IMG/VR virus record: IMGVR_UViG_3300048997_000130
Coordinates: 62,001 to 126,000 of that record
DNA length: 64,000 bases
DNA from: a virus
Direction: 5' to 3' (one strand)
The first letter of the stretch is position 1. Each line of letters starts with the position of its first letter. Below, piece by piece: positions 36,317 to 63,411 of the stretch. The notes under the pieces were generated by a model. That model was not told where the DNA came from and did no database searches. It saw only the letters and a program-made list of their open reading frames with translations. The position numbers and the translations under genes were made by a program.

Positions 36317-36342
36317 ACTATAGAGGAACCCGGGAGATTTAC
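36317..36342 (-). promoter_or_regulatory. array promoter for 35999-36295
   Basis: GTAAAT, 14 nt, TATAGT; then 7 nt to GGAGG. The upstream gene's TAA stop lies inside the first box. Confidence 0.7.
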
Positions 36343-36536
36343 GAGATTTTCTGCCAGGTCAGCCCGCCCATGTTTTGCCAGACGCCGACCGTGATTTGCG
36401 AATTTGGGGATGCTGTCTGGAATTCCCGCTTCTTCTTGTTAACGCCCGACCGTGATTTGTACAGGCCTGCCGCCGGCTGAGGTTGACCGTTTACTTCCAC
36501 CACCCACCACTGATTTTCTGGAAGAGCTTTAGGCAC
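36339..36536 (-). CDS. hypothetical protein, 65 aa, GTG start
   Basis: GTG 36536 directly behind GGAGGTTCTA. WWVVEVNGQPQP and a C-terminal TVGVWQNMGGLTWQKIS; small beta-rich fold, not recognised. Confidence 0.55.
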   Translation of the reverse strand: MPKALPENQWWVVEVNGQPQPAAGLYKSRSGVNKKKREFQTASPNSQITVGVWQNMGGLTWQKIS

Positions 36537-36553
36537 TAGAACCTCCAGTCCTG

Positions 36554-36579
36554 ACTATAAAGGAACCCGGGAGATTTGC
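36554..36579 (-). promoter_or_regulatory. array promoter for 36339-36536
   Basis: GCAAAT, 14 nt, TATAGT, 7 nt, GGAGG. The first box is the loop of the 36561-36594 hairpin and the spacer is its right arm. Confidence 0.7.
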
Positions 36580-36594
36580 GGCTCCCGGGTTCCT
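36561..36594 (-). terminator. 13-bp hairpin after the pentapeptide gene
   Basis: AGGAACCCGGGAG paired with CTCCCGGGTTCCT, 8-nt loop, followed by TTTATAG on the minus strand; shares bases with the promoter of the next gene. Confidence 0.6.
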
Positions 36595-36599
36595 GATTT

Positions 36600-36791
36600 T
36601 CAGCGGAAAAGGGCGTTTTCGAGGTTGGCGTCGTCGAACTTGGCACCCGAGAGATTCGCGTCACGGAAGTCCGCATTGCGGAGGTCGGCCCCACGGAAGT
36701 CCGCATTGCGGAGATTAGCGCCTTGGAAATTAGCACACTGGAGGTTGGAACCTGCAAAATTGCCATTCTCGAGATTTTGAACGTTGGTCAT
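36600..36791 (-). CDS. pentapeptide-repeat protein, 63 aa
   Basis: Start ATG 36791 with GGGAGA upstream. From residue 9 it is about eleven A(D/N)LxN-type pentapeptides (NFQGANLRNADFRGADLRNA), giving less than three turns of a right-handed quadrilateral beta helix. Larger members mimic DNA and inhibit gyrase; this one is minimal, so function is open. Confidence 0.8.
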   Translation of the reverse strand: MTNVQNLENGNFAGSNLQCANFQGANLRNADFRGADLRNADFRDANLSGAKFDDANLENALFR

Positions 36792-36813
36792 TTTCTGGAA
36801 TCTCCCAATTTCT

Positions 36814-36839
36814 GCTAAAGCGCCCGGGACCAAATTTCC
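36814..36839 (-). promoter_or_regulatory. array promoter for the pentapeptide gene
   Basis: GGAAAT, 14 nt, TTTAGC, then 7 nt to GGGAG; first box in the loop of the 36819-36860 hairpin. Confidence 0.6.
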
Positions 36840-36860
36840 GCTTTCTGGTCCCCGGGCGCT
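36819..36860 (-). terminator. 14-bp GC-rich hairpin
   Basis: AGCGCCCGGGACCA arm with one bulged C opposite, 13-nt loop. Follows the 36873-37199 gene on the minus strand. Confidence 0.6.
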
Positions 36861-36872
36861 TGGTTCGAGCTG

Positions 36873-37199
36873 TTAGCGACCGGCGAGCAGGATCTCACTG
36901 GTTCCGGCCTGGCTTGTGAAGCCCGAGCCGCCGTGCGTGCGTGAAGATCCCGGCCCGAACCAGCGGTCATTGGACGAAGTGGTGAAACCTCGGGTGCGCT
37001 TGAGCGCCAGGCGAGTCTCCAGGGCAAGCCCGAAGCTCTCGAGCGCCTGGCGAATGCTGGCGACCGGCGTGCGCAGCCGAAAGTTCAGGGCGGTCAGGTC
37101 TTCGTGGGAAAAAGTCTCTTTGTCGTCGTCCATGCAAAACTGCACGAACGCTTCGATGCTTGCGAACTCAGGTGCCGACTTGAACGTGATATTTGCCAT
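36873..37199 (-). CDS. hypothetical protein, 108 aa
   Basis: N-terminal helical part (SHEDLTALNFRLRTPVASIR) may be a winged helix; the tail DRWFGPGSSRTHGGSG is Gly/Ser-rich and seems a conserved phage motif from memory. GGAGG site sits in an 11-bp stem (37204-37241). Confidence 0.6.
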   Translation of the reverse strand: MANITFKSAPEFASIEAFVQFCMDDDKETFSHEDLTALNFRLRTPVASIRQALESFGLALETRLALKRTRGFTTSSNDRWFGPGSSRTHGGSGFTSQAGTSEILLAGR

Positions 37200-37221
37200 T
37201 TTGCCAGTGCCTCCATTCCCT

Positions 37222-37247
37222 TCTATGCTCGGAGGCACTGGATTTAC
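37222..37247 (-). promoter_or_regulatory. array promoter for 36873-37199
   Basis: GTAAAT, 14 nt, CATAGA, 7 nt, GGAGG. An 11-bp inverted repeat (CCAGTGCCTCC) spans the second box and the ribosome site. About 100 nt upstream of this, to 37351, hold no clear gene. Confidence 0.7.
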
Positions 37248-37351
37248 GAAGACCGGGAAACGGCCTTTTGGAGACACTGGACGCCCTGATATAGCTAGGG
37301 GATTAATTCAAGCGCAAGGAAAACCCCACGGAACGTCAGGACTACCCATTC

Positions 37352-37666
37352 CTACATACGAATCTTGGCTTTGCCGTCTTGGACCGACAGCACGTCCAGG
37401 TGTTTCTCTTCTTTCAGATACCTGTAGAATCTGAAATCTTCCTCGTCCGCATCCCGGCAGTCTTCACGTGAGATGAAACCCAGGTCGGGATGTCCAAACG
37501 TGAGATCCGAAAAAGTCAGTTCGAAGGTGACGATTTTGGACGATTTCTTGGCCATAGGCTTTACGCAATCTCCGTTTTGATGTCCGGCCAGGGAAACTTT
37601 CCCGTGCTCTCGAATCCAACTATAACGATAGCCGCAAAATTTGCAGAATTCGGCAGGGACGGTCAT
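37352..37666 (-). CDS. CxxC protein, 104 aa
   Basis: EFCKFCGYRYSW near the N-terminus, one more Cys at about 34; then a Lys-rich link and an acidic C-terminal domain. Starts 1 nt after the upstream stop (TAAGATG). Confidence 0.55.
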   Translation of the reverse strand: MTVPAEFCKFCGYRYSWIREHGKVSLAGHQNGDCVKPMAKKSSKIVTFELTFSDLTFGHPDLGFISREDCRDADEEDFRFYRYLKEEKHLDVLSVQDGKAKIRM

Positions 37667-37667
37667 C

Positions 37668-37922
37668 TTAGCCTCGAATCAATTTTTGCTCGGGTTCGAA
37701 AAGAGCAATACGAATTATTGAAGTCAGTTTATCTGCTTGGACTTCTAGGCCGGTTATCGAATTCCAAATCTCTCTATGCTTTGAAGTCCCGAATTTACGC
37801 TTGGACAGGGCCACGTTGAGCTTGCCAATCGTTTGGTAAATGCTCGGGAGTTCATTCAAAGCTGCCCAAGCCTCGTGTTTTAGATTGGAAATCATCGGGT
37901 TTTTCTCGCGTGCGCGCGTCAT
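37668..37922 (-). CDS. hypothetical helical protein, 84 aa
   Basis: ATG 37922 overlaps the upstream stop (ATGA), which fixes the start at MTRAREKNP. Helical, not recognised. Confidence 0.55.
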   Translation of the reverse strand: MTRAREKNPMISNLKHEAWAALNELPSIYQTIGKLNVALSKRKFGTSKHREIWNSITGLEVQADKLTSIIRIALFEPEQKLIRG

Positions 37923-38053
37923 GCACGTCGCGATTCGCGCGCACAAGGGCATTCAAATTGGGATAATTTCAGGAAAATCGGAAGCTCGTCTCTCCGAGCT
38001 GTCACGCCGAACCACAGGTGGCGTTCCCCGCCCGATCCTTTAGAATCGATCAG
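37919..38053 (-). CDS. small protein, about 44 aa, non-ATG start
   Basis: The frame ends HLWFGVTARRDELPIF, LKLSQFECPCARESRRA and couples to the next gene by ATGA. A promoter lies just upstream, yet no ATG is in frame; CTG 38053 is a guess. Confidence 0.4.
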   Translation of the reverse strand: MIDSKGSGGERHLWFGVTARRDELPIFLKLSQFECPCARESRRA

Positions 38054-38066
38054 GTTAACATTTGCT

Positions 38067-38092
38067 GCTACGAAAGATGGAGGGAAATTTAC
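38067..38092 (-). promoter_or_regulatory. array promoter for the 37352-38053 operon
   Basis: GTAAAT, 14 nt, CGTAGC. Predicted transcript would begin near 38060. Confidence 0.6.
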
Positions 38093-38253
38093 GAGACCGT
38101 CATGACTTCGTAGCGAACGTTTTTGCGTTCGAGAATGACGGCGTTGGGCCGGACGCCCACGACAACGTAGCCCAGATCCGTGAAATGCGCCAGGCCAATG
38201 GCCCGGTCGAGCACATGCTGGAAAGAACAACTTTTGAGAACTTGAATTTCCAT
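38089..38253 (-). CDS. hypothetical protein, 54 aa
   Basis: MEIQVLKSCSFQHVLDRAIG opening, then LGYVVVGVRPNAVILERKNV; a single small alpha/beta unit. GGAGATTCCC in front of ATG 38253. Not recognised. Confidence 0.6.
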   Translation of the reverse strand: MEIQVLKSCSFQHVLDRAIGLAHFTDLGYVVVGVRPNAVILERKNVRYEVMTVS

Positions 38254-38270
38254 GGGAATCTCCACCCCTC

Positions 38271-38296
38271 ACTATAGGAAGAATCTCGGGACTTAC
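38271..38296 (-). promoter_or_regulatory. array promoter for 38089-38253
   Basis: GTAAGT, 14 nt, TATAGT, 7 nt, GGAG. Confidence 0.7.
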
Positions 38297-38547
38297 GCCA
38301 GCCATTCCACGCGGGTTAGACACCACATATACTGGCCATGCGTGGCATTATATACCGATTGCTCTCGGGCAATTCCGAGCTCGGCCAGGTGGTTGAGGCT
38401 GAACACCACGCTGGTCAACGTGAAACCGGCTTCGCGGGCGATTTCGACAGGGTCGGCATGGCCGGCGCGCGACAAATGACGCGCGACAGCACGAGTTTCC
38501 AAGGCCAAGTCATGCGATTTGAGCGTGGCGTTCAGTTCTTGGTTCAT
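38293..38547 (-). CDS. winged-helix protein, 84 aa
   Basis: HADPVEIAREAGFTLTSVVF then SLNHLAELGIA fits a winged helix-turn-helix with recognition helix SVVFSLNHL; likely a small DNA-binding regulator. GGAGGCTC site. Confidence 0.6.
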   Translation of the reverse strand: MNQELNATLKSHDLALETRAVARHLSRAGHADPVEIAREAGFTLTSVVFSLNHLAELGIAREQSVYNATHGQYMWCLTRVEWLA

Positions 38548-38569
38548 TTGGTCCGAGCCTCCACCCTAC

Positions 38570-38595
38570 GCTAAGTTCAAGAAACCCAGATTTAC
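38570..38595 (-). promoter_or_regulatory. array promoter for 38293-38547
   Basis: GTAAAT, 14 nt, CTTAGC; 7 nt before GGTGGAGG begins. Confidence 0.6.
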
Positions 38596-39054: not shown

Positions 39055-39080
39055 TCTAAACCTTGGAGACTCGGATTTAC
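39055..39080 (-). promoter_or_regulatory. array promoter for 38592-39032
   Basis: GTAAAT, 14 nt, TTTAGA, 7 nt, GGAGG. Directly downstream of the tRNA-like end of the RNA at 39084-39300. Confidence 0.7.
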
Positions 39081-39307: not shown

Positions 39308-39333
39308 TTTACACTTGGAACCCGGGAATTTAC
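39308..39333 (-). promoter_or_regulatory. array promoter for the tRNA-like RNA
   Basis: GTAAAT, 14 nt, TGTAAA; no ribosome site follows, and 7 nt later the long hairpin of the RNA begins. Confidence 0.65.
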
Positions 39334-39566: not shown

Positions 39567-39592
39567 ACTACGGGAAGAATCTAGAAATTTAC
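39567..39592 (-). promoter_or_regulatory. array promoter for 39341-39544
   Basis: GTAAAT, 14 nt, CGTAGT; 8 nt to GGAGG. Confidence 0.65.
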
Positions 39593-40098: not shown

Positions 40099-40124
40099 AC
40101 TATGGGTGGAGTCCGGGAATTTAC
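40099..40124 (-). promoter_or_regulatory. array promoter for 39597-40076
   Basis: GTAAAT, 14 nt, CATAGT, 7 nt, GGAG. Confidence 0.7.
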
Positions 40125-40394: not shown

Positions 40395-40420
40395 AGTACA
40401 TAAAGCCCGTTCAGACTTAC
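40395..40420 (-). promoter_or_regulatory. array promoter for 40121-40360
   Basis: GTAAGT, 14 nt, TGTACT; a longer leader than usual (about 27 nt). Confidence 0.5.
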
Positions 40421-41258: not shown

Positions 41259-41284
41259 AATACGGTGACGGGGGCCCGATTTAC
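41259..41284 (-). promoter_or_regulatory. array promoter for 40417-41238
   Basis: GTAAAT, 14 nt, CGTATT, 7 nt, GGAG; first box forms the loop of the 41264-41301 hairpin. Confidence 0.65.
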
Positions 41285-41689: not shown

Positions 41690-41715
41690 TCTACGTGGGA
41701 ACCCGGGAGACTTAC
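41690..41715 (-). promoter_or_regulatory. array promoter for 41309-41668
   Basis: GTAAGT, 14 nt, CGTAGA, 7 nt, GGAGG. Confidence 0.7.
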
Positions 41716-42013: not shown

Positions 42014-42039
42014 ACTACGAAAGGAGTCTGGGAATCTAC
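42014..42039 (-). promoter_or_regulatory. array promoter for 41712-41993
   Basis: GTAGAT, 14 nt, CGTAGT. Confidence 0.55.
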
Positions 42040-42303: not shown

Positions 42304-42329
42304 TGTATCGATGAAGTGTTGAAATTTAC
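42304..42329 (-). promoter_or_regulatory. array promoter for 42036-42293
   Basis: GTAAAT, 14 nt, GATACA. Confidence 0.55.
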
Positions 42330-42562: not shown

Positions 42563-42564
42563 GA

Positions 42565-42735
42565 CTAATTGGAAACCAATCGAACTTGCGAATCTTCAGA
42601 GACGCGGATGAGACCGGCTTCCTCGAGAACTTCCAAACCAGTGCTGGTTTCCTCGATGCCGAAATCATCCACGAGCTCTGCCAAAGGCGCTTGTCCGTAT
42701 TTCTCGAGCAGCCCCAGAATCTGTGCGCTGAACAT
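42565..42735 (-). CDS. winged-helix protein, 56 aa
   Basis: FSAQILGLLEKYGQAPLAEL, then TGLEVLEEAGLIRVSEDSQV: a complete small winged helix with the recognition helix around ETSTGLEVL. Probably a DNA-binding regulator. GGAGGTTC before ATG 42735. Confidence 0.65.
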   Translation of the reverse strand: MFSAQILGLLEKYGQAPLAELVDDFGIEETSTGLEVLEEAGLIRVSEDSQVRLVSN

Positions 42736-42757: not shown

Positions 42758-42783
42758 CATACGGAAAGGGCTGGGAGATTTAC
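42758..42783 (-). promoter_or_regulatory. array promoter for 42326-42735
   Basis: GTAAAT, 14 nt, CGTATG, 7 nt, GGAGG. A second, incomplete copy of the first box (GGAAAT at 42819-42824) lies upstream, followed by the three-codon frame ATG-TTT-AAG-TAA. Confidence 0.65.
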
Positions 42784-43113: not shown

Positions 43114-43139
43114 GATATGGAAGAACCCAGGAGATTTAC
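43114..43139 (-). promoter_or_regulatory. array promoter for 42853-43092
   Basis: GTAAAT, 14 nt, CATATC, 7 nt, GGAGG. Confidence 0.7.
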
Positions 43140-43458: not shown

Positions 43459-43484
43459 GATACGGGTTCCCCCGGGAGATTTAC
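43459..43484 (-). promoter_or_regulatory. array promoter for 43136-43447
   Basis: GTAAAT, 14 nt, CGTATC; the first box and the upstream TAA stop form the loop of an 8-bp hairpin (43472-43495). Confidence 0.6.
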
Positions 43485-43932: not shown

Positions 43933-44214
43933 TCAAGGTACAGAATTAGAGGACGGATTTACCTTCACGTCCGAGACTCCGAGGAAATCGTAGTCCAGTC
44001 TATGTCCGCAATACTTAAGCATGAAGACTTCCGCCCTTTGTTCGGCCTGGGCATATGTTTCGGCCTCCACTTGGATTTCGAAAGCCAGCGGTTGATTGAT
44101 TTCGAACCATGGAGGGCTTGAAATTTCCACAGATTTGATCGAAGACGGAACAAAGTTATTCAGCTTAACTTGCAGATCGAGACGCGCCGTAACTTTCACT
44201 GTGAATTTTGCCAT
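43933..44214 (-). CDS. MAKF-family hypothetical protein, 93 aa
   Basis: MAKFTVKVTARLDLQVKLNN opening, then FEIQVEAETYAQAEQRAEVF and GVSDVKV. The layout (strand, strand, AEA-rich helix, strand) repeats in the 45064-45489, 47219-47401 and 50526-50708 proteins, so these are probable paralogues. Function unknown. Confidence 0.6.
   Translation of the reverse strand: MAKFTVKVTARLDLQVKLNNFVPSSIKSVEISSPPWFEINQPLAFEIQVEAETYAQAEQRAEVFMLKYCGHRLDYDFLGVSDVKVNPSSNSVP
43937..43962 (-). promoter_or_regulatory. array promoter for 43481-43914, inside upstream gene
   Basis: GTAAAT, 14 nt, TGTACC, 7 nt, GGAGG; lies within the last 30 nt of the 43933-44214 gene, flanked by GGACG / CGTCC. Confidence 0.65.
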
Positions 44215-44235: not shown

Positions 44236-44261
44236 GATATGGAAGAATCCAGGAGACTTCC
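44236..44261 (-). promoter_or_regulatory. array promoter for 43933-44214
   Basis: GGAAGT, 14 nt, CATATC; divergent from the plus-strand copy at 44271. Confidence 0.5.
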
Positions 44262-45063: not shown

Positions 45064-45489
45064 CTATTGATCGGGAACCCAGATTTTCGGCAGGGAGTCA
45101 TTGGATTCGAGCATGCCGCCACCCTCATGTTGTGGCGAGTTGAACGTCCTTTGACAGTACTTACAAACCCGTTGATTGCTGGTGTTGGGCGGGCAACCCC
45201 TGTTTAGAAGGATCGTGTGCTTGCAGGCAAGTTTCTCCTCTAGAGATCTGTCAATCTTAGTCTCTGCCACTTTAACATTCCAACATTGGACGTTGAAGCC
45301 AGTTCCCTGGATTATGAGTCGCGCTTGGGCTTCAGCCTCTTCTTGATTGGAAGCTTGGACTGTGACTGTCAGCATTATTTCTGGTGTGAACTTCAATCCG
45401 AGTTGTATACCAGTAACTTGCCCAGACATCGGGTAAACATCCATCCCCATTTCAAGCCGACAAAGGACTTTAATTTCAAATTCTTGCAT
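45064..45489 (-). CDS. MAKF-type domain fused to cysteine-rich tail, 141 aa
   Basis: Start ATG 45489 (MQEFEIKVLCRLEMG). The first 90 residues match the MAKF family (VTVQASNQEEAEAQARLIIQ, then WNVKVAET). The tail has CKHTILLNRGC and VCKYCQRTF, a likely zinc site. Confidence 0.6.
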   Translation of the reverse strand: MQEFEIKVLCRLEMGMDVYPMSGQVTGIQLGLKFTPEIMLTVTVQASNQEEAEAQARLIIQGTGFNVQCWNVKVAETKIDRSLEEKLACKHTILLNRGCPPNTSNQRVCKYCQRTFNSPQHEGGGMLESNDSLPKIWVPDQ

Positions 45490-45499
45490 CGTATTTCTT

Positions 45500-45525
45500 C
45501 CTAACCAGAAACCTCTTTGATTTAC
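45500..45525 (-). promoter_or_regulatory. array promoter for 44654-45489
   Basis: GTAAAT, 14 nt, GTTAGG. Confidence 0.6.
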
Positions 45526-45728
45526 CGGGTCCAAGTGCCGGCCGGACCATTGCCCCAGGCTTTGCGCTCCAGGGCTTCCCGGTCCTCCCAGCTCGAATTA
45601 TCAGTTGCAGGCTCGCCAGCTGGCTTTTGGAACTTTATGACTGCAACGGCTCGCAAGATCAAAATGGCTCCAAAGAAAAACACGAACGTGGAGAGCAAGT
45701 AAATCTTGATGAACTTCCCGGTGGTCAT
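45522..45728 (-). CDS. small membrane protein, 68 aa
   Basis: Start ATG 45728 (MTTGKFIKIYLL) chosen because the upstream ATG 45752 lies inside the promoter. One membrane helix (STFVFFFGAILILRAVAVI), C-terminal charged tail; unknown. AAAGGAA site. Confidence 0.6.
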   Translation of the reverse strand: MTTGKFIKIYLLSTFVFFFGAILILRAVAVIKFQKPAGEPATDNSSWEDREALERKAWGNGPAGTWTR

Positions 45729-45735
45729 AATTCCT

Positions 45736-45761
45736 TTTACCGGGAAATTCATTCAATTTAC
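45736..45761 (-). promoter_or_regulatory. array promoter for 45522-45728
   Basis: GTAAAT, 14 nt, GGTAAA; decides the gene start. Confidence 0.6.
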
Positions 45762-46066
45762 AAGGGTCGGTTGGGAACTCGGACCGACAGGCTCTTCCCA
45801 TTCTCCCATTGCGCAAGACCCATTCGAGATGCACAAGGTGTGTTGGTCCAAACTGCAATGCCTCGTTGCACGAGACCAGCCACAAGTTCGGCCGGTTCGG
45901 AAAGCAAGATGCCGCCAAGGGCTCGCGTGAAGATGGTCGGAACGTACCCATCCGACATTGATGCTTGCAGGTCAGTGAGCGTCCGGAACGCGGTATATCG
46001 CTTGAGGAGAACTTCGAGCCGCGACATGAGGACCAAATCAAACTCGGCAATGATTGACGTTTCCAT
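45758..46066 (-). CDS. hypothetical protein, 102 aa
   Basis: METSIIAEFDLVLMSRLEVLL start; not recognised. AGGA ribosome site. Confidence 0.55.
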   Translation of the reverse strand: METSIIAEFDLVLMSRLEVLLKRYTAFRTLTDLQASMSDGYVPTIFTRALGGILLSEPAELVAGLVQRGIAVWTNTPCASRMGLAQWENGKSLSVRVPNRPL

Positions 46067-46073: not shown

Positions 46074-46099
46074 TCTACTGGGAACCCTGGAAGACTTAC
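46074..46099 (-). promoter_or_regulatory. array promoter for 45758-46066
   Basis: GTAAGT, 14 nt, AGTAGA. Confidence 0.6.
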
Positions 46100-46894: not shown

Positions 46895-46920
46895 ACTATG
46901 AAGGGATGGCCCAGATTTAC
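46895..46920 (-). promoter_or_regulatory. array promoter for 46096-46875
   Basis: GTAAAT, 14 nt, CATAGT, 7 nt, GGAG. Confidence 0.7.
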
Positions 46921-47186: not shown

Positions 47187-47212
47187 CCTACTGAGAAATT
47201 ATTCGAATTTCC
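47187..47212 (-). promoter_or_regulatory. array promoter for 46917-47174
   Basis: GGAAAT, 14 nt, AGTAGG. Confidence 0.55.
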
Positions 47213-47627: not shown

Positions 47628-47653
47628 GATATGAAGGTTAGGGCAGGATTTAC
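47628..47653 (-). promoter_or_regulatory. array promoter for 47219-47607
   Basis: GTAAAT, 14 nt, CATATC. Confidence 0.65.
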
Positions 47654-48006: not shown

Positions 48007-48032
48007 TTTACATCCATATCAGGCGGACTTAC
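48007..48032 (-). promoter_or_regulatory. array promoter for 47650-47999
   Basis: GTAAGT, 14 nt, TGTAAA; only 7 nt to the ATG, so a leaderless mRNA is predicted. Confidence 0.6.
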
Positions 48033-48244: not shown

Positions 48245-48270
48245 AGTATGTTCAGACATATCCGACTTAC
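48245..48270 (-). promoter_or_regulatory. array promoter for 48019-48237
   Basis: GTAAGT, 14 nt, CATACT. Confidence 0.6.
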
Positions 48271-48427: not shown

Positions 48428-48453
48428 CCTATATATGGGATGGGTGAATTTCC
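48428..48453 (-). promoter_or_regulatory. array promoter for 48299-48420
   Basis: GGAAAT, 14 nt, TATAGG; directly after the 48452-48504 hairpin. Confidence 0.6.
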
Positions 48454-48850: not shown

Positions 48851-48876
48851 TCTATGGAATCAATCCAGTGATTTAC
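48851..48876 (-). promoter_or_regulatory. array promoter for 48514-48828
   Basis: GTAAAT, 14 nt, CATAGA, 7 nt, GGAGG. Confidence 0.7.
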
Positions 48877-48903: not shown

Positions 48904-48929
48904 GTAAATCCTCCATATAGCCGTATAGC
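48904..48929 (+). promoter_or_regulatory. array promoter, plus strand, for 48937-49062
   Basis: GTAAAT, 14 nt, TATAGC; 7 nt to ATG 48937. Confidence 0.65.
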
Positions 48930-49556: not shown

Positions 49557-49582
49557 TTTACATCTCAGGTGCCCAAATTTAC
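49557..49582 (-). promoter_or_regulatory. array promoter for 49064-49547
   Basis: GTAAAT, 14 nt, TGTAAA. Confidence 0.6.
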
Positions 49583-49797: not shown

Positions 49798-49823
49798 GCT
49801 ATATGGGCGGTGTTGGAATTTAC
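49798..49823 (-). promoter_or_regulatory. array promoter for 49587-49790
   Basis: GTAAAT, 14 nt, TATAGC; 7 nt to ATG 49790. Confidence 0.6.
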
Positions 49824-50112: not shown

Positions 50113-50138
50113 TATATGAGGGAGATGTCAGAACTTAC
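50113..50138 (-). promoter_or_regulatory. array promoter for 49876-50103
   Basis: GTAAGT, 14 nt, CATATA. Confidence 0.6.
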
Positions 50139-50475: not shown

Positions 50476-50501
50476 AATATAAAGGTGGAGGATGAATTTA
50501 C
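50476..50501 (-). promoter_or_regulatory. array promoter for 50135-50455
   Basis: GTAAAT, 14 nt, TATATT, 7 nt, GGAGG. Confidence 0.7.
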
Positions 50502-50730: not shown

Positions 50731-50756
50731 ACTATTGAGACAGGATTTGAATCTAC
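50731..50756 (-). promoter_or_regulatory. array promoter for 50526-50708
   Basis: GTAGAT, 14 nt, AATAGT, 7 nt, GGAGG. Confidence 0.6.
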
Positions 50757-51067: not shown

Positions 51068-51093
51068 AGTAAACAGAAAGAACTCGGATTTAC
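51068..51093 (-). promoter_or_regulatory. array promoter for 50819-51046
   Basis: GTAAAT, 14 nt, TTTACT, 7 nt, GGAGG. Confidence 0.7.
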
Positions 51094-51386: not shown

Positions 51387-51412
51387 CCTATGGAGAAAGG
51401 ATGACGATTTAC
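51387..51412 (-). promoter_or_regulatory. array promoter for 51107-51379
   Basis: GTAAAT, 14 nt, CATAGG; 7 nt to ATG. Confidence 0.65.
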
Positions 51413-51608: not shown

Positions 51609-51634
51609 CCTACATTGGAAATGTAGGCACTTAC
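51609..51634 (-). promoter_or_regulatory. array promoter for 51409-51588
   Basis: GTAAGT, 14 nt, TGTAGG; spacer contains CCTACAT / ATGTAGG inverted repeat. Confidence 0.6.
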
Positions 51635-52021: not shown

Positions 52022-52047
52022 TCTACGCAGGACGGGTCTAGACTTAC
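52022..52047 (-). promoter_or_regulatory. array promoter for 51647-52000
   Basis: GTAAGT, 14 nt, CGTAGA, 7 nt, GGAGG. Confidence 0.7.
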
Positions 52048-52344: not shown

Positions 52345-52370
52345 TATATGAATGAGGCTCCCACATTTCC
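52345..52370 (-). promoter_or_regulatory. array promoter for 52052-52327
   Basis: GGAAAT, 14 nt, CATATA; first box in the loop of an 8-bp hairpin (52354-52381). Confidence 0.55.
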
Positions 52371-52570: not shown

Positions 52571-52596
52571 TCTATGTTGCCAAATATCCAATTTCC
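52571..52596 (-). promoter_or_regulatory. array promoter for 52393-52563
   Basis: GGAAAT, 14 nt, CATAGA; lies in the 3' end of the upstream gene. Confidence 0.6.
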
Positions 52597-53066
52597 GGTT
52601 CTTCCCCAGTCCGAACAACCAGACCTTGCGCACACAGAAAATGGAGGGCGATATTCACCGTCCATGCGGCGTCGTCCGAGTCGTCATCGACGTCCGCATA
52701 TATCTGGTCCGATCCCCAAGCTCCGCTTTCCCGGAGCTTGTCACCAATTTCAGTTACTCGAGCCAGGTCAATCCGGGTTACGCGAGCAATCTCTGCATCT
52801 ACGGGTCCGAACAGGAACGCGGCAATCACTACTCTCAAAAGTTCAAGTTCGGCCTCAGACCGGTTTGGGTACTCGGGCAATTGTAATGCTAGAATCTGCT
52901 CATAGCCCATTTCGGGCGTGAGCCCGATGCAAAGCAAACATTCTTTTTTCCCCAGACCGAAACACCTGAAATGAAGCCATCTCCCGCATTCTTTACACTT
53001 CCGCCTTTGCTCGTGGTACTCCACGGCTTTATTGCAAAGTGGACATTCATGGCGGAAATAAGGCAT
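52572..53066 (-). CDS. C4HC3 zinc-finger (RING/PHD-like) plus winged-helix-like protein, 164 aa
   Basis: C8/C11, C24/C27, H32/C35 and C43/C46 give the spacing C-x2-C-x12-C-x2-C-x4-H-x2-C-x7-C-x2-C of PHD or RING-variant fingers, rare outside eukaryotes. The C-terminal 100 residues (LELLRVVIAAFLFGPVDAEI, then RIDLARVTEIGDKLRESGAW) look like a winged helix. A reader of a modified protein, or a ubiquitin-ligase mimic, cannot be told apart here; a simple treble-clef zinc domain is also possible. Confidence 0.6.
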   Translation of the reverse strand: MPYFRHECPLCNKAVEYHEQRRKCKECGRWLHFRCFGLGKKECLLCIGLTPEMGYEQILALQLPEYPNRSEAELELLRVVIAAFLFGPVDAEIARVTRIDLARVTEIGDKLRESGAWGSDQIYADVDDDSDDAAWTVNIALHFLCAQGLVVRTGEEPEIGYLAT

Positions 53067-53111: not shown

Positions 53112-53137
53112 ATTATTTTTTCCTAATTCAAATTTAC
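53112..53137 (-). promoter_or_regulatory. array promoter for 52572-53066
   Basis: GTAAAT, 14 nt, AATAAT; a 40-nt leader follows, with a GGAGAT / ATCTCC hairpin before the gene. Confidence 0.5.
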
Positions 53138-53485: not shown

Positions 53486-53511
53486 ACTATTCAGACTGGA
53501 GTCTGATTTAC
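53486..53511 (-). promoter_or_regulatory. array promoter for 53260-53475
   Basis: GTAAAT, 14 nt, AATAGT. Back-to-back (8 nt) with the plus-strand copy at 53520. Confidence 0.6.
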
Positions 53512-53719: not shown

Positions 53720-53745
53720 TCTATAAAGATATGTCTGGAATTTAC
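53720..53745 (-). promoter_or_regulatory. array promoter without clear gene
   Basis: GTAAAT, 14 nt, TATAGA; only a three-codon frame (ATG-GGA-ACC-TGA) follows. Could drive a short RNA. Confidence 0.55.
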
Positions 53746-54578: not shown

Positions 54579-54648
54579 GTGACATATGTGTATTATGGCA
54601 TATAGGCAAGTGACCCCTGCCATATATTTCGGAAATATATATTAGAAA

Positions 54649-54924
54649 TCAGGCTTTACAACTTACAGGCGGAGGTTCGGAATCTTCTTCAAATTCTTTA
54701 GTGGCTCGAACGTGTGTGATTTCTTCCTCTCGCAAGACTTTATCCGTAAGTTCGTCGAATGTGATCCTGCCTGCCACGTACGCTTCAATATATTTGCGAG
54801 GACCGGAGGCAGCAACAAGACCTGCGCCAATGCGCTGCCCGTCCAGTTCGGTGTGGATGATGAGTTGAGCATCAGTCCGTTTGTTAGGATTTATCCTAAT
54901 TTCGTGATAGCTTTCGAGTTTCAT
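54649..54924 (-). CDS. hypothetical protein, 91 aa
   Basis: YHEIRINPNKRTDAQLIIHT, then GPRKYIEAYVAGRITFDELT; small alpha/beta, acidic tail. Not recognised. Confidence 0.6.
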   Translation of the reverse strand: MKLESYHEIRINPNKRTDAQLIIHTELDGQRIGAGLVAASGPRKYIEAYVAGRITFDELTDKVLREEEITHVRATKEFEEDSEPPPVSCKA

Positions 54925-54934: not shown

Positions 54935-54960
54935 CCTACTGCTAACCCCCTCAGATTTAC
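54935..54960 (-). promoter_or_regulatory. array promoter for 54649-54924
   Basis: GTAAAT, 14 nt, AGTAGG. Confidence 0.6.
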
Positions 54961-55269: not shown

Positions 55270-55295
55270 GCTATTGAGATCGGAGCTTGATTTCC
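55270..55295 (-). promoter_or_regulatory. array promoter for 54984-55247
   Basis: GGAAAT, 14 nt, AATAGC, 7 nt, GGAGG. Confidence 0.65.
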
Positions 55296-56024: not shown

Positions 56025-56050
56025 AATACTTAGACAGATATGTGATTTAC
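56025..56050 (-). promoter_or_regulatory. array promoter for 55304-56002
   Basis: GTAAAT, 14 nt, AGTATT, 7 nt, GGAGG. Confidence 0.7.
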
Positions 56051-56963: not shown

Positions 56964-57173
56964 TTAATACTGAAAAAACAGGAGAGTTTCCGGATTTTTA
57001 GTGTCCAGCGTGGTTTGGATTTCGGAATCTTCCCAGATTTTGCGATTGAATACGTAAATCAACCGGTGAGGCTTAAACCCTTTCACCAGCAAATTCCCGT
57101 AGGCATAGAATCGAACTTCCTGCTTCGATTCTTGGAGATAATGGCCGTTAGGCGCTCTGAACTTCTCGTTCAT
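56964..57173 (-). CDS. hypothetical protein, 69 aa
   Basis: Start ATG 57173 (MNEKFRAPNGHYLQESKQ), 26 nt inside the end of the upstream gene. KQEVRFYAYGNLLVKGFKPH, YVFNRKIW; not recognised. Confidence 0.55.
   Translation of the reverse strand: MNEKFRAPNGHYLQESKQEVRFYAYGNLLVKGFKPHRLIYVFNRKIWEDSEIQTTLDTKNPETLLFFQY
56966..56991 (-). promoter_or_regulatory. array promoter for 56660-56953
   Basis: GGAAAC, 14 nt, AGTATT; weak first box. Confidence 0.45.
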
Positions 57174-57349: not shown

Positions 57350-57375
57350 GTTATGTCTGGAATGTTAGAATTTAC
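57350..57375 (-). promoter_or_regulatory. array promoter for 56964-57327
   Basis: GTAAAT, 14 nt, CATAAC, 7 nt, GGAGG. Confidence 0.7.
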
Positions 57376-58285: not shown

Positions 58286-58311
58286 ATTATTTTAAAAGAT
58301 ATTGGATTTCC
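58286..58311 (-). promoter_or_regulatory. array promoter for 57372-58261
   Basis: GGAAAT, 14 nt, AATAAT, 7 nt, GGAGG. Confidence 0.6.
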
Positions 58312-58789: not shown

Positions 58790-59038
58790 TTATTGAAGTT
58801 GACTGTGGGGATCCGATCCGGGCCGCTGAATAATGCACGACAAGAATTGATTTCCACGAATGAATTCGACATGGATGTCGCCAAATTCCGTGTAACTATC
58901 AATATAATCTTGGACAGTCCGGATCGGACTCCCGTTACTTGATATGATTTTATCACCCACAAGGAGTCCAGCTTTTTCAGCTGGACTATCCGGCTGGATG
59001 TGCCAAATCCGGAATCCGTCGATTTGAGTGTCAGTCAT
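58790..59038 (-). CDS. single PDZ-domain protein, 82 aa
   Basis: Start ATG 59038, 1 nt after the upstream stop. FRIWHIQPDSPAEKAGLLVG then DKIISSNGSPIRTVQDYID and VEFIRGNQ: a full PDZ domain with nothing else, no protease. PDZ binds protein C-termini, so it may target HtrA-type partners or compete with host PDZ proteins. Confidence 0.75.
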   Translation of the reverse strand: MTDTQIDGFRIWHIQPDSPAEKAGLLVGDKIISSNGSPIRTVQDYIDSYTEFGDIHVEFIRGNQFLSCIIQRPGSDPHSQLQ

Positions 59039-59039: not shown

Positions 59040-59255
59040 TTATTTGATTGTAAAAGATTCCGGGTCTGATCTACTGGCCCGAATATTATCGTTCCTGTTG
59101 CAACCCGGACAAGGCTTTCGAGTCCAAAGTTGGAAAGCCCCGTCCACCATGACGGCTTTGGAATGCGATCGAAATGACTTTCCACAATGACATTCAATAC
59201 TGGATTCCGGAAATCCATCCAGGACTAACCAATTAATTTCCGTAGGGGATTCCAT
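59040..59255 (-). CDS. zinc-ribbon-like protein, 71 aa
   Basis: CHCGKSF and CPGCNRND give a four-Cys site. No array promoter upstream; a 22-nt palindrome (59278-59299) lies there. Confidence 0.6.
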   Translation of the reverse strand: MESPTEINWLVLDGFPESSIECHCGKSFRSHSKAVMVDGAFQLWTRKPCPGCNRNDNIRASRSDPESFTIK

Positions 59256-59618: not shown

Positions 59619-59644
59619 ACTAAGCCATGAATGATTGTATTTAC
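59619..59644 (-). promoter_or_regulatory. array promoter for 59307-59597
   Basis: GTAAAT, 14 nt, CTTAGT, 7 nt, GAGG. Confidence 0.6.
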
Positions 59645-59915: not shown

Positions 59916-60233
59916 TTAATCCAATCGGACTGATAGATACCAAAAAGCAAAAAAACTCAGGACGGCTTTATAGGTTACTGCCCCGAATGAGCCAAGGAGC
60001 GTAATGATTATCGCAGCGTGGTTGGTGAACCCCACCATTTGACCAAGTGCCATATATATGAGAATTGCCATGCCGGCTGCGATGAAAAATTTCATTTTAA
60101 CTTGGCTCCAGCTCCAAATACGGAAACGGGACTTGGATTTGCGAACTGGCCTCGACTTTGGAGGTTTGGCCAAAGCCTGCGCAAGTCGGTCTCGTGATTC
60201 CTTATTGGCTTGACCGGACAAGTTTCCATCCAA
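59916..60233 (-). CDS. small membrane protein, 105 aa
   Basis: Basic N-terminal 45 residues, then two membrane helices (FFIAAGMAILIYMALG and HAAIIITLLGSFGAVTY). The basic part would face the cytoplasm. Overlaps the upstream gene by 32 nt. Confidence 0.6.
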   Translation of the reverse strand: MDGNLSGQANKESRDRLAQALAKPPKSRPVRKSKSRFRIWSWSQVKMKFFIAAGMAILIYMALGQMVGFTNHAAIIITLLGSFGAVTYKAVLSFFAFWYLSVRLD

Positions 60234-60486: not shown

Positions 60487-61033
60487 GTTCTTGCATATGT
60501 TCAGGCGCTTCAAATTTCCGAAACGGCAAGACTTCTCGAGCTTTTAAATCGAGAGCTCGAGCTCGAAGCAGAGATTTAGAACGGCCGGCCTTATAAAGAG
60601 ACCCGGGTTCATAGAGCAAAAGTTCATAACTGCGCACTTGCAGGAGCTCATTTATCAAATGCTCATGTGACAGGAGTTTTTGAGGTTCATCGAGAATCCA
60701 AATTTTGGTGGTGAGCGTGGAGCGCCATAAACGCTCAAGTTCTTCTTGCCGTTTTTCGAACGGCACTGTCGTAAAACTTGGCAAATCCACCAAACACAAT
60801 TTAATGATTGGTTGCGAATCATCATAAAACCCATCGAGTGGAATGTTCGGGAAACCGTCCAAGAATTCGTCCGGAGTGGACAAAACGTTGCCATGCCGGT
60901 CAAGAAGCATCTTCCCATCCCAATATACATGTTGCCCTTCGGGTTGAATGGTTATCCACCAACCGACGGGATTCACGTCCGGAAAATCTTCTAGATTTCG
61001 GGCACGCATGAGAGGTGGACTATTGGGTTTCAT
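60467..61033 (-). CDS. degenerate ATP-dependent DNA ligase-like protein, 188 aa
   Basis: Aligns by eye with the adenylation domain of small ATP ligases (LigE type): GWWITIQPEGQHVYWDGK corresponds to W-x-S-E-K-L-D-G-V-R-A-Y-W-D-G-K; LLDRHGNV, PNIPLDG, LVDLPSF, PFEKRQEEL and YEPGSLYKAGRSKSLLRAR also fit. The catalytic Lys is Gln 30, the Asp is Glu 32, the Arg is His 35, the metal-binding Glu after LDG is Phe 69, and the K-x-K motif V is R-A-R. It should not form ligase-AMP; a DNA- or protein-binding role is likelier. No OB domain. Confidence 0.65.
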   Translation of the reverse strand: MKPNSPPLMRARNLEDFPDVNPVGWWITIQPEGQHVYWDGKMLLDRHGNVLSTPDEFLDGFPNIPLDGFYDDSQPIIKLCLVDLPSFTTVPFEKRQEELERLWRSTLTTKIWILDEPQKLLSHEHLINELLQVRSYELLLYEPGSLYKAGRSKSLLRARALDLKAREVLPFRKFEAPEHMQEHETPES

Positions 61034-61317: not shown

Positions 61318-61332
61318 TATTTTGCCTTAGAT

Positions 61333-61367: not shown

Positions 61368-61622
61368 CTACGCAACTCGAACTGACGGCATGTCCTGACG
61401 GGTGGTCCGGTTCTGGCGAGCCGCCTGTTCAGCCGCCCGAATGAATTTGGTGTCTGCATGATTGCGCACTGCAGCATCGAGTTGCCGGACTGTCCATCCC
61501 GAAGTTCGGGCAACATAGCAAAAAACTTGGCATTTGGTTTCGATGTCCATGCCTGCAAGAGCCGCTTTCATGGCCACCAGACGATGCATGACTGATTTGA
61601 ACTCGAGACGATTTCGTTCCAT
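61368..61622 (-). CDS. hypothetical protein, 84 aa
   Basis: Start ATG 61622 (MERNRLEFKSVMHRLVAM), AGGAGC site; TSGWTVRQLDAAVRNHADT may be a helix-turn-helix. Basic C-terminus. Confidence 0.55.
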   Translation of the reverse strand: MERNRLEFKSVMHRLVAMKAALAGMDIETKCQVFCYVARTSGWTVRQLDAAVRNHADTKFIRAAEQAARQNRTTRQDMPSVRVA

Positions 61623-61629
61623 GTTTGCT

Positions 61630-61655
61630 CCTAAATCGAAATCAGTCAGATTTCC
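61630..61655 (-). promoter_or_regulatory. array promoter for 61368-61622
   Basis: GGAAAT, 14 nt, TTTAGG; overlaps the upstream gene's end. Confidence 0.6.
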
Positions 61656-61995
61656 GCAATTGCTCGAGAAGCGACTTGCGCCAAGGATTCCCGCCGTCGT
61701 CAACAAACCGAATGTTTTGGATTTGATCTGGCAAAGCTACGCCATAATAACCATGGCAATGGCTTTCCAGATTATCGTCTCGGATTCCGACATGTCCAAA
61801 ACGTGAGTAGCAAGTTATGAAGACTTTGGTGCCGGCCGTGGCCGTGTGGACTTCGGTGTTGGCGTCCGACGGATGCGTGCCGTTCCAAACGCGCATTTCA
61901 ATGGGTTCGAGGAGTTCCGCATGTGCGAAAACTTCCCGACCTTCATGTTTGCGGAGATAGATTTCTTCCCAGGCTGCTGCGTCTTCAGGATTCAT
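61642..61995 (-). CDS. hypothetical protein, 117 aa
   Basis: AHAELLEPIEMRVWNGTHPS, then AGTKVFITCYSRFGHVGIRD: beta-rich; not recognised. Confidence 0.6.
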   Translation of the reverse strand: MNPEDAAAWEEIYLRKHEGREVFAHAELLEPIEMRVWNGTHPSDANTEVHTATAGTKVFITCYSRFGHVGIRDDNLESHCHGYYGVALPDQIQNIRFVDDGGNPWRKSLLEQLRKSD

Positions 61996-61999
61996 ATTC

Positions 62000-62155
62000 T
62001 TAACTATTCCAAGAGATTTTGAATTTCCGTTTGAAAAGTGCCCCGGTCACGCAGCCGAATGCAAAAATCGCAGCGTGCAGCGCCCCATAAAGCCCGAACC
62101 AAAAGCCGGCAAAAGCTACGGCGAACATGATGAGCGCAAGATCACGATTTTGCAT
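62000..62155 (-). CDS. small membrane protein, 51 aa
   Basis: Start ATG 62155 (MQNRDLALIMFAVAFAG), 14 nt inside the upstream gene. Two short hydrophobic segments, then KRKFKISWNS. Not recognised. Confidence 0.5.
   Translation of the reverse strand: MQNRDLALIMFAVAFAGFWFGLYGALHAAIFAFGCVTGALFKRKFKISWNS
62003..62028 (-). promoter_or_regulatory. array promoter for 61642-61995
   Basis: GGAAAT, 14 nt, AATAGT. Confidence 0.6.
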
Positions 62156-62441
62156 GATTGTCCAGATAAACTTGGAAACCCCGCAAGGCTCCCGCAATGG
62201 ATTCAAAATCATTACAAATGGCAGACATGGGCCGGTTGCCAACTTTTGGGAACCGGGGTCTCAAGAAATCTGAATAATCACCCAAGAAATTTTGCATGTT
62301 CCGCACGCGCTGAAGCCGTAAACTGTGTCGAATTTCAAGCAGGAGCAAAACTTGGAGTTCGAACGCTTCGGGCCCGCCCCAGTTGCGAGGATGCTCAAGC
62401 ATCATTTCTATGCGCGTCTCAATGAACGATTCGATGTCCAT
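62142..62441 (-). CDS. hypothetical helical protein, 99 aa
   Basis: Start ATG 62441 (MDIESFIETRIEMMLEH); helical throughout. Located 20 nt behind a structured RNA that could be its leader. Confidence 0.55.
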   Translation of the reverse strand: MDIESFIETRIEMMLEHPRNWGGPEAFELQVLLLLEIRHSLRLQRVRNMQNFLGDYSDFLRPRFPKVGNRPMSAICNDFESIAGALRGFQVYLDNHAKS

Positions 62442-62444
62442 GGC

Positions 62445-62697
62445 TTTTTCAAAAACAAAAACGGGCAACGCACCCCGAGGACTAAAATGTCCTCTTTCCC
62501 CCGGCAAGAGGCGATCGATTCGTACCTTTGGACATTTTTGCCGAATGCCACGTCTTATCGATCCTTACTTTGGGGTGCGTTGCCCGCGAATTTAATTTTC
62601 CTTTTATAACTGTGCTTTATTTTACATTTAAACCGACAAGACTGTCCAAGACTGCTTAAATCAAAACTTTACTGAAATTTTTTGGTGTTCGATTTCT
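62445..62697 (-). ncRNA. structured RNA or leader ending in a terminator
   Basis: Begins after an array promoter that has no ribosome site or ORF behind it. Closing stem of 15 bp (62462-62476 with 62572-62586), then GCCCGTTTTTGTTTTTG, as in an intrinsic terminator. Inside: 7-bp stem (62512-62518 with 62557-62563), CCTCTT / AAGAGG, and two exclusive options for GGAC: a local GGAC / GTCC hairpin or a 9-bp pairing of 62484-62492 with 62530-62538. An independent RNA, or a switchable leader of the 62142-62441 gene. Confidence 0.5.
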
Positions 62698-62704
62698 GAA
62701 AATT

Positions 62705-62730
62705 CTTACAACATCACTCCGGAGATTTAC
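62705..62730 (-). promoter_or_regulatory. array promoter for the structured RNA
   Basis: GTAAAT, 14 nt, TGTAAG. The 165 nt between this and the next gene (62896) hold two CAACGGTTGA copies and an AATTTGGTT / AACCAAATT stem, no ORF. Confidence 0.55.
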
Positions 62731-62895
62731 AAATTTGGTTCACGTATTTTTCGAAAACCAAATTACGACGCCGTCAACGGTTGATTGAGACTTCAAACCG
62801 TAAACTTCAACGGTTGAATGCAATGGAAACTTGGCTTCCAACGCCGTGACTGGACCTCTCGAAACCGCCGACAATTTCAATGGGACTGGGCATTT

Positions 62896-63096
62896 TTAAT
62901 TTATTTGACCTTTGCAACACGGGCACGAGATTTTTCGCATTTGACTCGAACAATAAATGCGAGTGGAACATTCAGGACAACACACGGAACGCAGTGTCTT
63001 TTGAACGGGAGATTTCCTGCGAGCCAGCCAGGTTTGAGAAACCACGAAGCTGAACAACGCAAGAGTTATGAGGAGGAGGACCACTGAAAAATTCAT
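62896..63096 (-). CDS. membrane-anchored zinc-ribbon protein, 66 aa
   Basis: N-terminal helix FSVVLLLITLALFSFVVSQ, then CCPEC and CPCC with spacing of a zinc ribbon. ATGA overlap with the upstream gene. Confidence 0.6.
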   Translation of the reverse strand: MNFSVVLLLITLALFSFVVSQTWLARRKSPVQKTLRSVCCPECSTRIYCSSQMRKISCPCCKGQIN

Positions 63097-63329
63097 TTTT
63101 TCAAAATAAGAGTGGGGGATTCCAATTTGCGAAGACCTTCACGCTCGAGCTCCCACAACATTGCATAGACAATGATGGGAGGTTTGCGTGCGTCCTGGAA
63201 ATGGATCCACCAAGACAAAACTGATTGTGCAGGTTCGAAACGAATGGCCCCTAAAAGCTTGCCCGTTTTCCGGGCGATTTCAATTTTGCCCTTCCAAATT
63301 TGCCGAACCGGCTTTGTGATTTCTGCCAT
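63093..63329 (-). CDS. hypothetical protein, 78 aa
   Basis: Start ATG 63329 (MAEITKPVRQIWKGKIE), GGAGCGGG site; LSWWIHFQDARKPPIIVY middle. Not recognised. Confidence 0.6.
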   Translation of the reverse strand: MAEITKPVRQIWKGKIEIARKTGKLLGAIRFEPAQSVLSWWIHFQDARKPPIIVYAMLWELEREGLRKLESPTLILKK

Positions 63330-63345
63330 TTTTCCCGCTCCAAAT

Positions 63346-63371
63346 TCTATAAATTCGCCCATTGGATTTAC
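63346..63371 (-). promoter_or_regulatory. array promoter for 62896-63329
   Basis: GTAAAT, 14 nt, TATAGA. First, most upstream copy on the minus strand in the window. Confidence 0.65.
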
Positions 63372-63385
63372 GGTTGGCGGAGTTT

Positions 63386-63411
63386 GTAAATTAATGGGCG
63401 GGCCGGTTAGG
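63386..63411 (+). promoter_or_regulatory. array promoter, plus strand, for 63419-63652
   Basis: GTAAAT, 14 nt, GTTAGG, overlapping the AGGAGG ribosome site; divergent from the minus copy, 14 nt between first boxes. Confidence 0.6.

Follow-up and report, generated by a model that had tools for sequence, protein, structure and literature searches.

A rigid two-box promoter motif before the small genes of a large tailed phage and a candidate sigma factor to read it

The question raised by IMG/VR virus record IMGVR_UViG_3300048997_000130 is what reads a short two-box motif that recurs in front of its small genes. The window analysed here comprises 64,000 nucleotides (nt), namely positions 62001-126000 of this 196,676-bp record, which comes from a large tailed phage, that is, a very large bacterial virus. 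An original prediction, made from the letters alone, had described 62 copies of two boxes at a rigid distance and had taken them for a promoter recognized by a protein. The GTAAAT and TA boxes are probably the -35 and -10 elements of an extracytoplasmic function (ECF)-type sigma factor, most likely the phage's own protein of 478 amino acids (aa) encoded in the same window. The ECF layout, this candidate cognate sigma factor and a fifth of copies predicted to give leaderless mRNAs were beyond the sight of the original prediction.

The two-box motif and its phasing to translation starts

To begin with, the five spellings of the first box (box 1) listed in the original prediction were counted ahead of nnTAnn (box 2) in the part of the window beyond 36 kb. 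Exactly 62 copies with a gap of 14 nt (N14) were found on the minus strand, as had been claimed, while gaps of 8-13 and 15-23 nt gave between 0 and 10. The array lies on the minus strand, which corrects the earlier description, and nine N14 copies were counted on the plus strand. On the other hand, a copy reported with a 15-nt gap did not hold, as the N15 count was 3 and not above background. The scan that had been proposed at that time, with the pattern GTRADT-N14-NNTANN, was run on the window and yielded 55 matches compared with 11.2 ± 3.0 in dinucleotide shuffles (largest 18). Moreover, in an unbiased count of all pairs of a 5-mer and a 3-mer at each gap, CGTAA-N18-TAG and GTAAA-N17-TAG, both of which represent the motif, ranked top in the window genome. 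A weight matrix trained on the 62 copies themselves, with expected numbers taken from shuffles, found 67 minus-strand sites of at least 8 bits within the block, where 0.85 were expected (largest 2); three good additional copies were among them. In the AT-rich left part the matrix found 4 sites against 3.2 expected, i.e. the chance level, in agreement with the previous statement that no copy occurs there. Furthermore, the motif continues beyond the window, with some plus-strand copies at 126-186 kb of the record.

The sequence logo was Y-G-T-A-A-A-T-Y for box 1, with about 10 bits over six positions (a value partly due to the selection of sites), and [CT][AG]TA[G] for box 2, consisting of TA with weak neighbours. 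The spacer was nearly free of conserved sequence, apart from a slight pyrimidine preference ahead of box 2, and the spacers and flanks of the 62 copies shared almost no information. Such a logo differs from the housekeeping sigma-70 promoter TTGACA-N17-TATAAT, box 1 being GTAAAT and the TA being followed by no conserved final T. It also differs from the N4-type promoter, which has a hairpin at every copy, while here stems were found in a minority of sites.

Both boxes were phased to the signals of translation. GGAG(G) started 6-7 nt past box 2 in 28 of the 62 copies (the Shine-Dalgarno, or SD, class), which corrects the figures of the original prediction (about half of the copies, exactly 7 nt); a class of 12 copies in which ATG lies exactly 7 nt past box 2 (the leaderless class) had been missed. 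Many copies also have an ATG at +5, but it belongs to ATGGAGG and was disregarded as a leaderless start. Control matches at other spacings had neither the GGAG peak nor the ATG peak. In addition, the ninth position past the A of TA was mostly a pyrimidine (41 T, 15 C, 6 A, 0 G) and was followed mostly by a purine (36 G, 22 A), a pyrimidine-purine pair being the normal step at a start site. Given the phasing of GGAG(G) and ATG to the boxes, either the ribosome-binding site or the start codon would mark the 5' end of the transcripts; this phasing and the pyrimidine-purine step favour the earlier proposal that the mRNA starts at or just before the ribosome-binding site. The predicted leaders would thus mostly measure about 13-15 nt (with a 5'-terminal SD) or 0 nt (leaderless), with a tail at 2-5 nt, and about one fifth of the copies would make leaderless mRNAs. 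Finally, five plus-strand copies stood back to back with minus-strand copies.

Regarding the surroundings of the boxes, 7 of the 77 sites of the window genome had an inverted repeat with box 1 in its loop (0.8 expected), and a similar excess was found in the related genomes G001, G002 and G010, while these stems were missing in G003 and G009. In the window, inverted repeats of free sequence surround the predicted -35 box at 36579, 41284, 46099, 48270, 52370 and 43484 (minus strand). The stem-loop was rejected as the core of the element because, despite being significant, it occurs in a minority of sites and is absent from two genomes; it is more simply explained as the terminator of the upstream gene overlapping the next promoter. 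Furthermore, CCTC or CTCC appeared in the spacer of 42 of 140 SD-class copies and 6 of 87 leaderless ones (P = 1.3e-5; G000, G001 and G002), an excess hinting that read-through mRNA hides its SD sequence with the spacer.

A candidate sigma factor and the leader of its gene

The 478-aa protein is predicted, from its sequence and its structural model, to be a diverged ECF-like sigma factor whose region 2 is split by an insert, although to Pfam the protein looks unknown. The domains were assigned in the order region 2.1/2.2 (residues ~26-73), an insert of about 190 aa (~74 to 262) containing a C..C pair, region 2.3/2.4 (263-293), a linker, region 4 (327-395) and a DnaA-domain-IV-like C terminus (428-471). 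In an alignment of 13 members, the pattern D..Q.VR.RLL (residues 46-62) resembled sigma region 2.2 and the stretch GIDAGLLKYAEIIINNEVVNDFKRISR resembled region 2.3/2.4, region 4 being also present. The profile TIGR02937 matched 12 of the 13 orthologs (best 1.2e-9), including the window protein (1.5e-4), in which the match covers regions 2.3 to 4 and spans regions 2.3-2.4 from residue 265 onward. Sigma70_r4 was detected in 10 of the 13 (best 1.1e-7), with the window protein alone falling below the Pfam cut-off, and the PHROG 'RNA polymerase sigma factor' matched 7. Moreover, the PDB profile matches were region-4 chains, with weak E-values (best 0.061).

The AlphaFold2 model (predicted local distance difference test, pLDDT, 77.8) contained a long region-2.4 helix, a disordered linker (294-326), region 4 and a C-terminal helical domain. 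The Foldseek list against the PDB consisted almost entirely of sigma factors, many of them ECF, together with DnaA domain IV (1j1v, probability 1.00, root-mean-square deviation, rmsd, 2.0), while that against viral models contained DnaA C-terminal domains and sigma factors. The whole ECF sigma factor 6dv9 was also aligned (178 columns, 174 residues), with a weak E-value and a large rmsd. The sigma identity is proposed because the sequence profiles and the fold lists agree. No match to region 1 or region 3 was found, regions 2 and 4 being the only ones assigned; the further ECF traits are region 4 itself and a rigid -35/-10 promoter of the GGAA/CGT type, whose link to this protein is one of co-occurrence. 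No similar sequence was found by tblastn in 50,697 phage records at an E-value of 0.01, and no cellular relative in 84,980 genomes.

Another protein of the record (45276-46037 in record coordinates, minus strand; L011 5276-6037) has 253 aa and two tandem Sigma70_r4 domains. It is unrelated to the 478-aa protein and 62-68% identical in G001-G003, and it is found in both clades described below and in LR745208.1. It was rejected as the reader of the motif because it also occurs in the sister clade, which lacks the motif.

All 13 sigma orthologs carried a variant of CTCC-n-AAGYCG-[hairpin]-CGCANGGAGG directly ahead of the start codon. In this leader hairpin, 98.9% of the cells were paired with 20 double changes, a value reached by none of 500 shuffles, while slid controls were 20-59% paired. 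The upstream CTCC paired with the ribosome-binding site in most single-sequence folds. A covariance model of the leader gave exactly one good match per genome, always at the sigma gene, and recovered G009 (E-value 1.9e-8) even though this genome had been left out of model building. None was found in the searched parts of LR745208 and G013, and Rfam gave no match to the leader. Upstream of it, TTGACA-like/TAnnnT pairs were spotted by eye in several loci (L185, L189, L191, L192), as was the ECF motif directly before the leader in L182-L185 and L192, which suggests a first expression by the host sigma-70 followed by self-activation. In the window genome, a GGAAAT-N14-TATAAT copy near the sigma gene, at 11327, could be due to chance.

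Related phages and other features of the record

Three relatives were retrieved by pattern searches of viral contigs, namely G001 (393 kb), G002 (436 kb) and G003 (193 kb); dozens of their proteins have counterparts in the window's phage, at 30-90% identity. Genomes other than that of the window were scanned with a plain pattern. In its nGTA form, the motif showed the same spike at N14, with 86 matches in G001 (6-20 at other gaps), 65 in G002 (7-23) and 37 in G003 (3-8). The densest motif segments of these three genomes had a G+C content above the genome mean in each case. The phasing, with GGAG at +7/+8 and ATG at +7 past box 2, was found again in G001 (15 GGAG and 19 ATG) and G002 (31 and 7), while the GGAG peak was present in G003, blurred and weaker.

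The most conserved protein, A2, matched LR745208.1 at 76% and the proteins named 'major head protein' in Tunturi_5 (46%) and in Bacillus phage G (35%); its alignment comprised at least 448 relatives, of which 23 of the larger contigs were surveyed for the motif. In several members of the clade with at least 88% identity in this protein, the motif clearly exceeded the reversed pattern (36 vs. 8 in G008, 13 vs. 1 in G012 and 6 vs. 0 in G007), while it was essentially absent from the sister clade of 73-78%. LR745208.1, the nearest named relative, gave one match and three for the reversed pattern, thus lacking the motif, as did Tunturi_5. The sigma gene was present in G000-G003, G007-G012 and G022; LR745208.1, Tunturi_5 and the sister clade had none, and G005, G006 and G027, which also lack it, are probably fragments. 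Overall, the sigma gene and the motif both occur in the first clade and are both missing from the second. Unbiased searches further showed a drifted motif in two sigma-bearing genomes, namely CG[TG]A[AG] at the same distance from CGTAC in G010 (66% G+C), with GGAGGTG 9 nt further on, and CGGAA[AG]TC-N13-CGT[CT] in G009, which is near the textbook ECF consensus. This drift explains why these two genomes have few GTAAAT matches.

Other repeated words were also seen. G013, the only sister-clade genome examined for alternative promoter motifs (L276-L278), has many TATGAC-N6-GTCATA palindromes in one region, as well as promoters of sigma-70-like appearance, some of them with ATG 7 nt after CATAGT (leaderless). 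The unbiased search gave very high counts of spaced words of the GGACC/CCAGT/CCTTG type in G001, G002, G003 and G010, as if they formed repeats with a 9-nt period.

Concerning the rest of the record, its gene content is that of a tailed phage (terminase, portal, ribonucleotide reductase, thymidylate synthase, clamp loader and helicase). The array block has a G+C content of about 50%, compared with 37-40% in the remainder. A nucleotide search of the block against named phages gave no match, nor did an exact-peptide search with the helicase, and a partial survey of about 20 large record proteins revealed no phage RNA polymerase subunit. Among 61 small genes searched with Pfam, the only named matches were a pentapeptide protein, a PDZ protein and a single domain of unknown function. 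The matches came from the pooled set and were assigned by reading the sequences, which placed the pentapeptide-repeat and PDZ-domain proteins at 36603-36791 and 58793-59038 (minus strand), among the small genes of the array. The protein encoded at 14021-15202 (plus strand) matches the PHROG '2-aminooxy adenylosuccinate synthetase' (PurZ-like), from which the phage DNA may carry a modified adenine. Finally, a 902-aa protein has intein and LAGLIDADG domains, and inteins or insertions are also suggested for the portal (1471 aa) and for the ribonucleotide reductase (1366 aa), whose genes greatly exceed the parts that matched.

Table 1. Motif copies (predicted promoters) and other features, in window coordinates unless a locus (L) is named. 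ORF, open reading frame.
Feature	Position	Strand	Remark
Whole promoter array	36317-63411	-	~65 copies of Y-GTAAAT-N14-nnTAnn ahead of small minus-strand genes
SD class	60117-60142	-	GGAG 7 nt after box 2
SD class	59619-59644	-	
SD class	58286-58311	-	
SD class	57350-57375	-	
SD class	56025-56050	-	
SD class	55270-55295	-	
SD class	52345-52370	-	box 1 in inverted-repeat loop
SD class	52022-52047	-	
SD class	51609-51634	-	
SD class	51068-51093	-	
SD class	50731-50756	-	
SD class	50476-50501	-	
SD class	48851-48876	-	back to back with 48904 (+)
SD class	47628-47653	-	
SD class	46895-46920	-	
SD class	43937-43962	-	
SD class	43114-43139	-	
SD class	42758-42783	-	
SD class	42014-42039	-	
SD class	41690-41715	-	
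SD class	41259-41284	-	box 1 in inverted-repeat loop
SD class	40099-40124	-	
SD class	39055-39080	-	
SD class	38570-38595	-	
SD class	38271-38296	-	
SD class	37222-37247	-	
SD class	36554-36579	-	box 1 in loop of 13-bp inverted repeat
SD class	36317-36342	-	
Leaderless class	62003-62028	-	ATG 7 nt after box 2
Leaderless class	61630-61655	-	
Leaderless class	60494-60519	-	
Leaderless class	53112-53137	-	
Leaderless class	52571-52596	-	
Leaderless class	51387-51412	-	
Leaderless class	49798-49823	-	
Leaderless class	48428-48453	-	ATG at +7, no ORF of at least 35 aa found there
Leaderless class	48245-48270	-	inverted repeat around box 1
Leaderless class	48007-48032	-	
Leaderless class	46074-46099	-	inverted repeat around box 1
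Leaderless class	45736-45761	-	
Weaker/shifted SD	63346-63371	-	back to back with 63386 (+)
Weaker/shifted SD	53486-53511	-	
Weaker/shifted SD	49557-49582	-	
Weaker/shifted SD	40395-40420	-	
Shifted SD	39567-39592	-	SD one nt further on
Weaker/shifted SD	39308-39333	-	
Weaker/shifted SD	37773-37798	-	
Weaker/shifted SD	37619-37644	-	
Weaker/shifted SD	36814-36839	-	
Motif copy	63105-63130	-	no phased SD, ATG 1 nt off
Motif copy	62705-62730	-	no phased SD/ATG
Motif copy	59049-59074	-	ATG 3 nt downstream of predicted start
Motif copy	54935-54960	-	ATG 3 nt downstream of predicted start
Motif copy	54641-54666	-	no phased SD/ATG
Motif copy	53720-53745	-	back to back with 53754 (+)
Motif copy	52777-52802	-	no phased SD/ATG
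Motif copy	50113-50138	-	ATG 2 nt downstream of predicted start
Motif copy	47187-47212	-	ATG 5 nt downstream of predicted start
Motif copy	45500-45525	-	ATG 3 nt downstream of predicted start
Motif copy	43459-43484	-	ATG 4 nt downstream of predicted start; inverted repeat at 43484
Motif copy	42304-42329	-	ATG 3 nt downstream of predicted start
Motif copy	38067-38092	-	no phased SD/ATG
Extra copy	44236-44261	-	missed by exact pattern; GGAAGT...CATATC then GGAGGTTC; 25.6 bits
Extra copy	56966-56991	-	GGAAAC...AGTATT; 13.9 bits
Extra copy	42564-42589	-	GCAAGT...ATTAGT; 13.8 bits
Plus-strand copy	63386-63411	+	leaderless, ORF 63419-63652; back to back with 63371 (-)
Plus-strand copy	48904-48929	+	ATG at +7; back to back with 48876 (-)
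Candidate ECF-like sigma factor	9770-11206	-	478 aa, candidate reader of array
Leader RNA of sigma gene	11214-11250	-	covarying hairpin; upstream CTCC can pair with GGAG ribosome-binding site
Leader hairpin	L063 12912-12948		
Leader hairpin	L265 7432-7468		
Leader hairpin	L095 17060-17096		
Leader hairpin	L246 4636-4674		
Leader hairpin	L089 180-216		
902-aa intein protein	L010 843-3551	-	
Portal	L010 7791-12206	-	
Ribonucleotide reductase	2112-6212	-	

Possible readers of the motif and known systems

Several observations weigh against the phage's own sigma factor as the reader. A host ECF sigma factor of the same specificity could do the same; G009, G010 and G011 have the sigma gene and few exact GTAAAT matches, which drift accounts for in G009 and G010; and the co-occurrence of gene and motif concerns a single clade, so that it amounts to one phylogenetic event. 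As for the protein itself, single Foldseek E-values were weak (0.02 or worse), and region 2.1/2.2 was placed on the basis of conserved residues and of the AlphaFold model, Pfam Sigma70_r2 giving no match in the window protein. The promoters might be read by an ECF sigma factor of the host, such as a stress sigma active in infection, with the phage sigma serving other promoters. The layout is indeed generic for ECF promoters, nearest to the canonical GGAA..CGTC in G009, and the motif block is richer in G+C in the window genome and in G001-G003, as if suited to a host of higher G+C content. Nevertheless, the motif follows the phage clade and the phage's own sigma gene, its box 1 drifts among phages of one clade, and a host stress sigma would be a risky lone driver for about 65 genes, which makes this explanation unlikely.

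Split-sigma systems exist in T4 and SPO1, and this general precedent would allow box 1 to be read by a MotA-like activator or by the tandem-region-4 protein, whose two Sigma70_r4 domains are clear and which is well conserved in G001-G003, with the host sigma-70 taking the TA box for its -10. This is quite improbable, since the sister clade and LR745208, which lack the motif, have that protein just as well, box 2 is merely nnTAnn without the final T of TATAAT, and the rigid 14-nt gap is ECF-like. The stems around box 1 would also suit an RNA-level element marking a site of mRNA processing or termination instead of a promoter; as described above, they exceed expectation in four genomes. However, most sites have no stem and two genomes have none, while the back-to-back copies on opposite strands, the pyrimidine-purine step and the phased ATG and SD fit a promoter, leaving very little weight for this alternative. 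Finally, chance or the recent duplication of one intergenic segment, to which the occasional matches in the left half could be attributed, may practically be dismissed: spacers and flanks share almost no information while the spacing is fixed, shuffles fail to reproduce the array, and the motif is conserved in relatives. The original prediction had argued in the same way against gene duplication, and its proposal that the promoter is recognized by another protein than the usual sigma-70 agrees with the phasing, the pyrimidine-purine step, the back-to-back pairs and the conservation.

Under the proposal that the phage's own sigma factor reads the array, the host polymerase would make this protein first, from a host-type promoter, and its translation would be controlled by a leader RNA able to hide the ribosome-binding site. 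The phage sigma would then bind the host core RNA polymerase and take it over, region 4 recognizing GTAAAT and region 2 the TA box at a rigid distance. Transcription would start 9-10 nt downstream of TA, at or just before GGAGG or exactly at AUG, so that about 65 small genes would be separate, nearly leader-free transcription units, turned on together. In SD-class copies, the anti-SD sequence of the spacer may silence read-through mRNA, so that translation might be confined to mRNA begun at the promoter. The wider picture, judged slightly better than even, is that of a huge-phage clade with a private sigma factor of new architecture (split region 2, region 4 and a DnaA-domain-IV tail), dozens of single-gene units, initiation at the SD or AUG and a new leader RNA governing sigma translation.

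The regulation of uncultivated huge phages is mostly obscure and their small genes are unannotated. With a private sigma factor and its very exact promoter, the transcription units and true starts of hundreds of related contigs could be delimited, the genes could be grouped according to their co-regulation, and an orthogonal tool for expression could be built. Moreover, initiation locked to the ribosome-binding site or AUG would offer an unusual natural set for the study of 5'-terminal SD and leaderless translation.

Among known systems, the motif and its drifted forms match the published ECF layout, exemplified by sigma-H promoters, in which GGAAYA occupies -34 to -29, GTT occupies -11 to -9 and the spacer must be rigid (PMC6411747). 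The likeness to bacterial ECF promoters lies in a GGAA-like -35 and a GT(T/C/A)-like -10 at rigid spacing (PMC6411747), and that to the ECF (group IV) sigmas, such as Mycobacterium tuberculosis sigma-H and sigma-L and Escherichia coli sigma-E, in region 4 and the lack of a region 3, by profile and fold, together with a tentatively assigned region 2. Unlike them, the predicted sigma is phage-borne, carries an insert of about 190 aa in region 2 and an extra C-terminal DNA-binding domain; box 1 of its presumed promoters has drifted to GTAAAT, and no anti-sigma factor was identified. ECF-type sigmas of phages are already known in phiEco32 and 7-11 (PMC4331800, PMC5333181, PMC7881722), whose promoters combine an extended -10 (tAATGTAtA) with the lack of a recognizable -35, the 9-bp motif having been found in the published analysis upstream of six phiEco32 genes. 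With them are shared a phage sigma of the ECF group, distant from sigma-70 and here presumed to redirect the host RNA polymerase, as well as small unknown genes and phage promoters upstream of gene clusters. In contrast, the 478-aa protein had no match among the phage records searched by tblastn, and the promoters here do not have an extended -10 in place of a -35: about 65 copies combine a strong -35 (GTAAAT) with a short -10 (TA) across a gap fixed at 14 nt, and the predicted sigma has a region 2 that is apparently split and a C terminus resembling DnaA. In cluster K mycobacteriophages, the start-associated sequence (SAS) is a short repeat just upstream of the starts of many small genes, about half of the copies having an adjacent inverted repeat, the extended SAS (ESAS) (PMC3203893); however, the placement of SAS follows the translation start, and the 17-bp repeats of ESAS have a fixed sequence, while the array has two boxes at a fixed distance and, in a minority of copies, box 1 flanked by repeats whose sequence is free. 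Lastly, the large genome and private promoter class recall the phiKZ/AR9-type jumbo phages, which have their own multisubunit RNA polymerases (PMC5312081), although the leaders of AR9 measure 26-491 nt (PMC5312081) and those of the array would measure about 0 or 13-15 nt.

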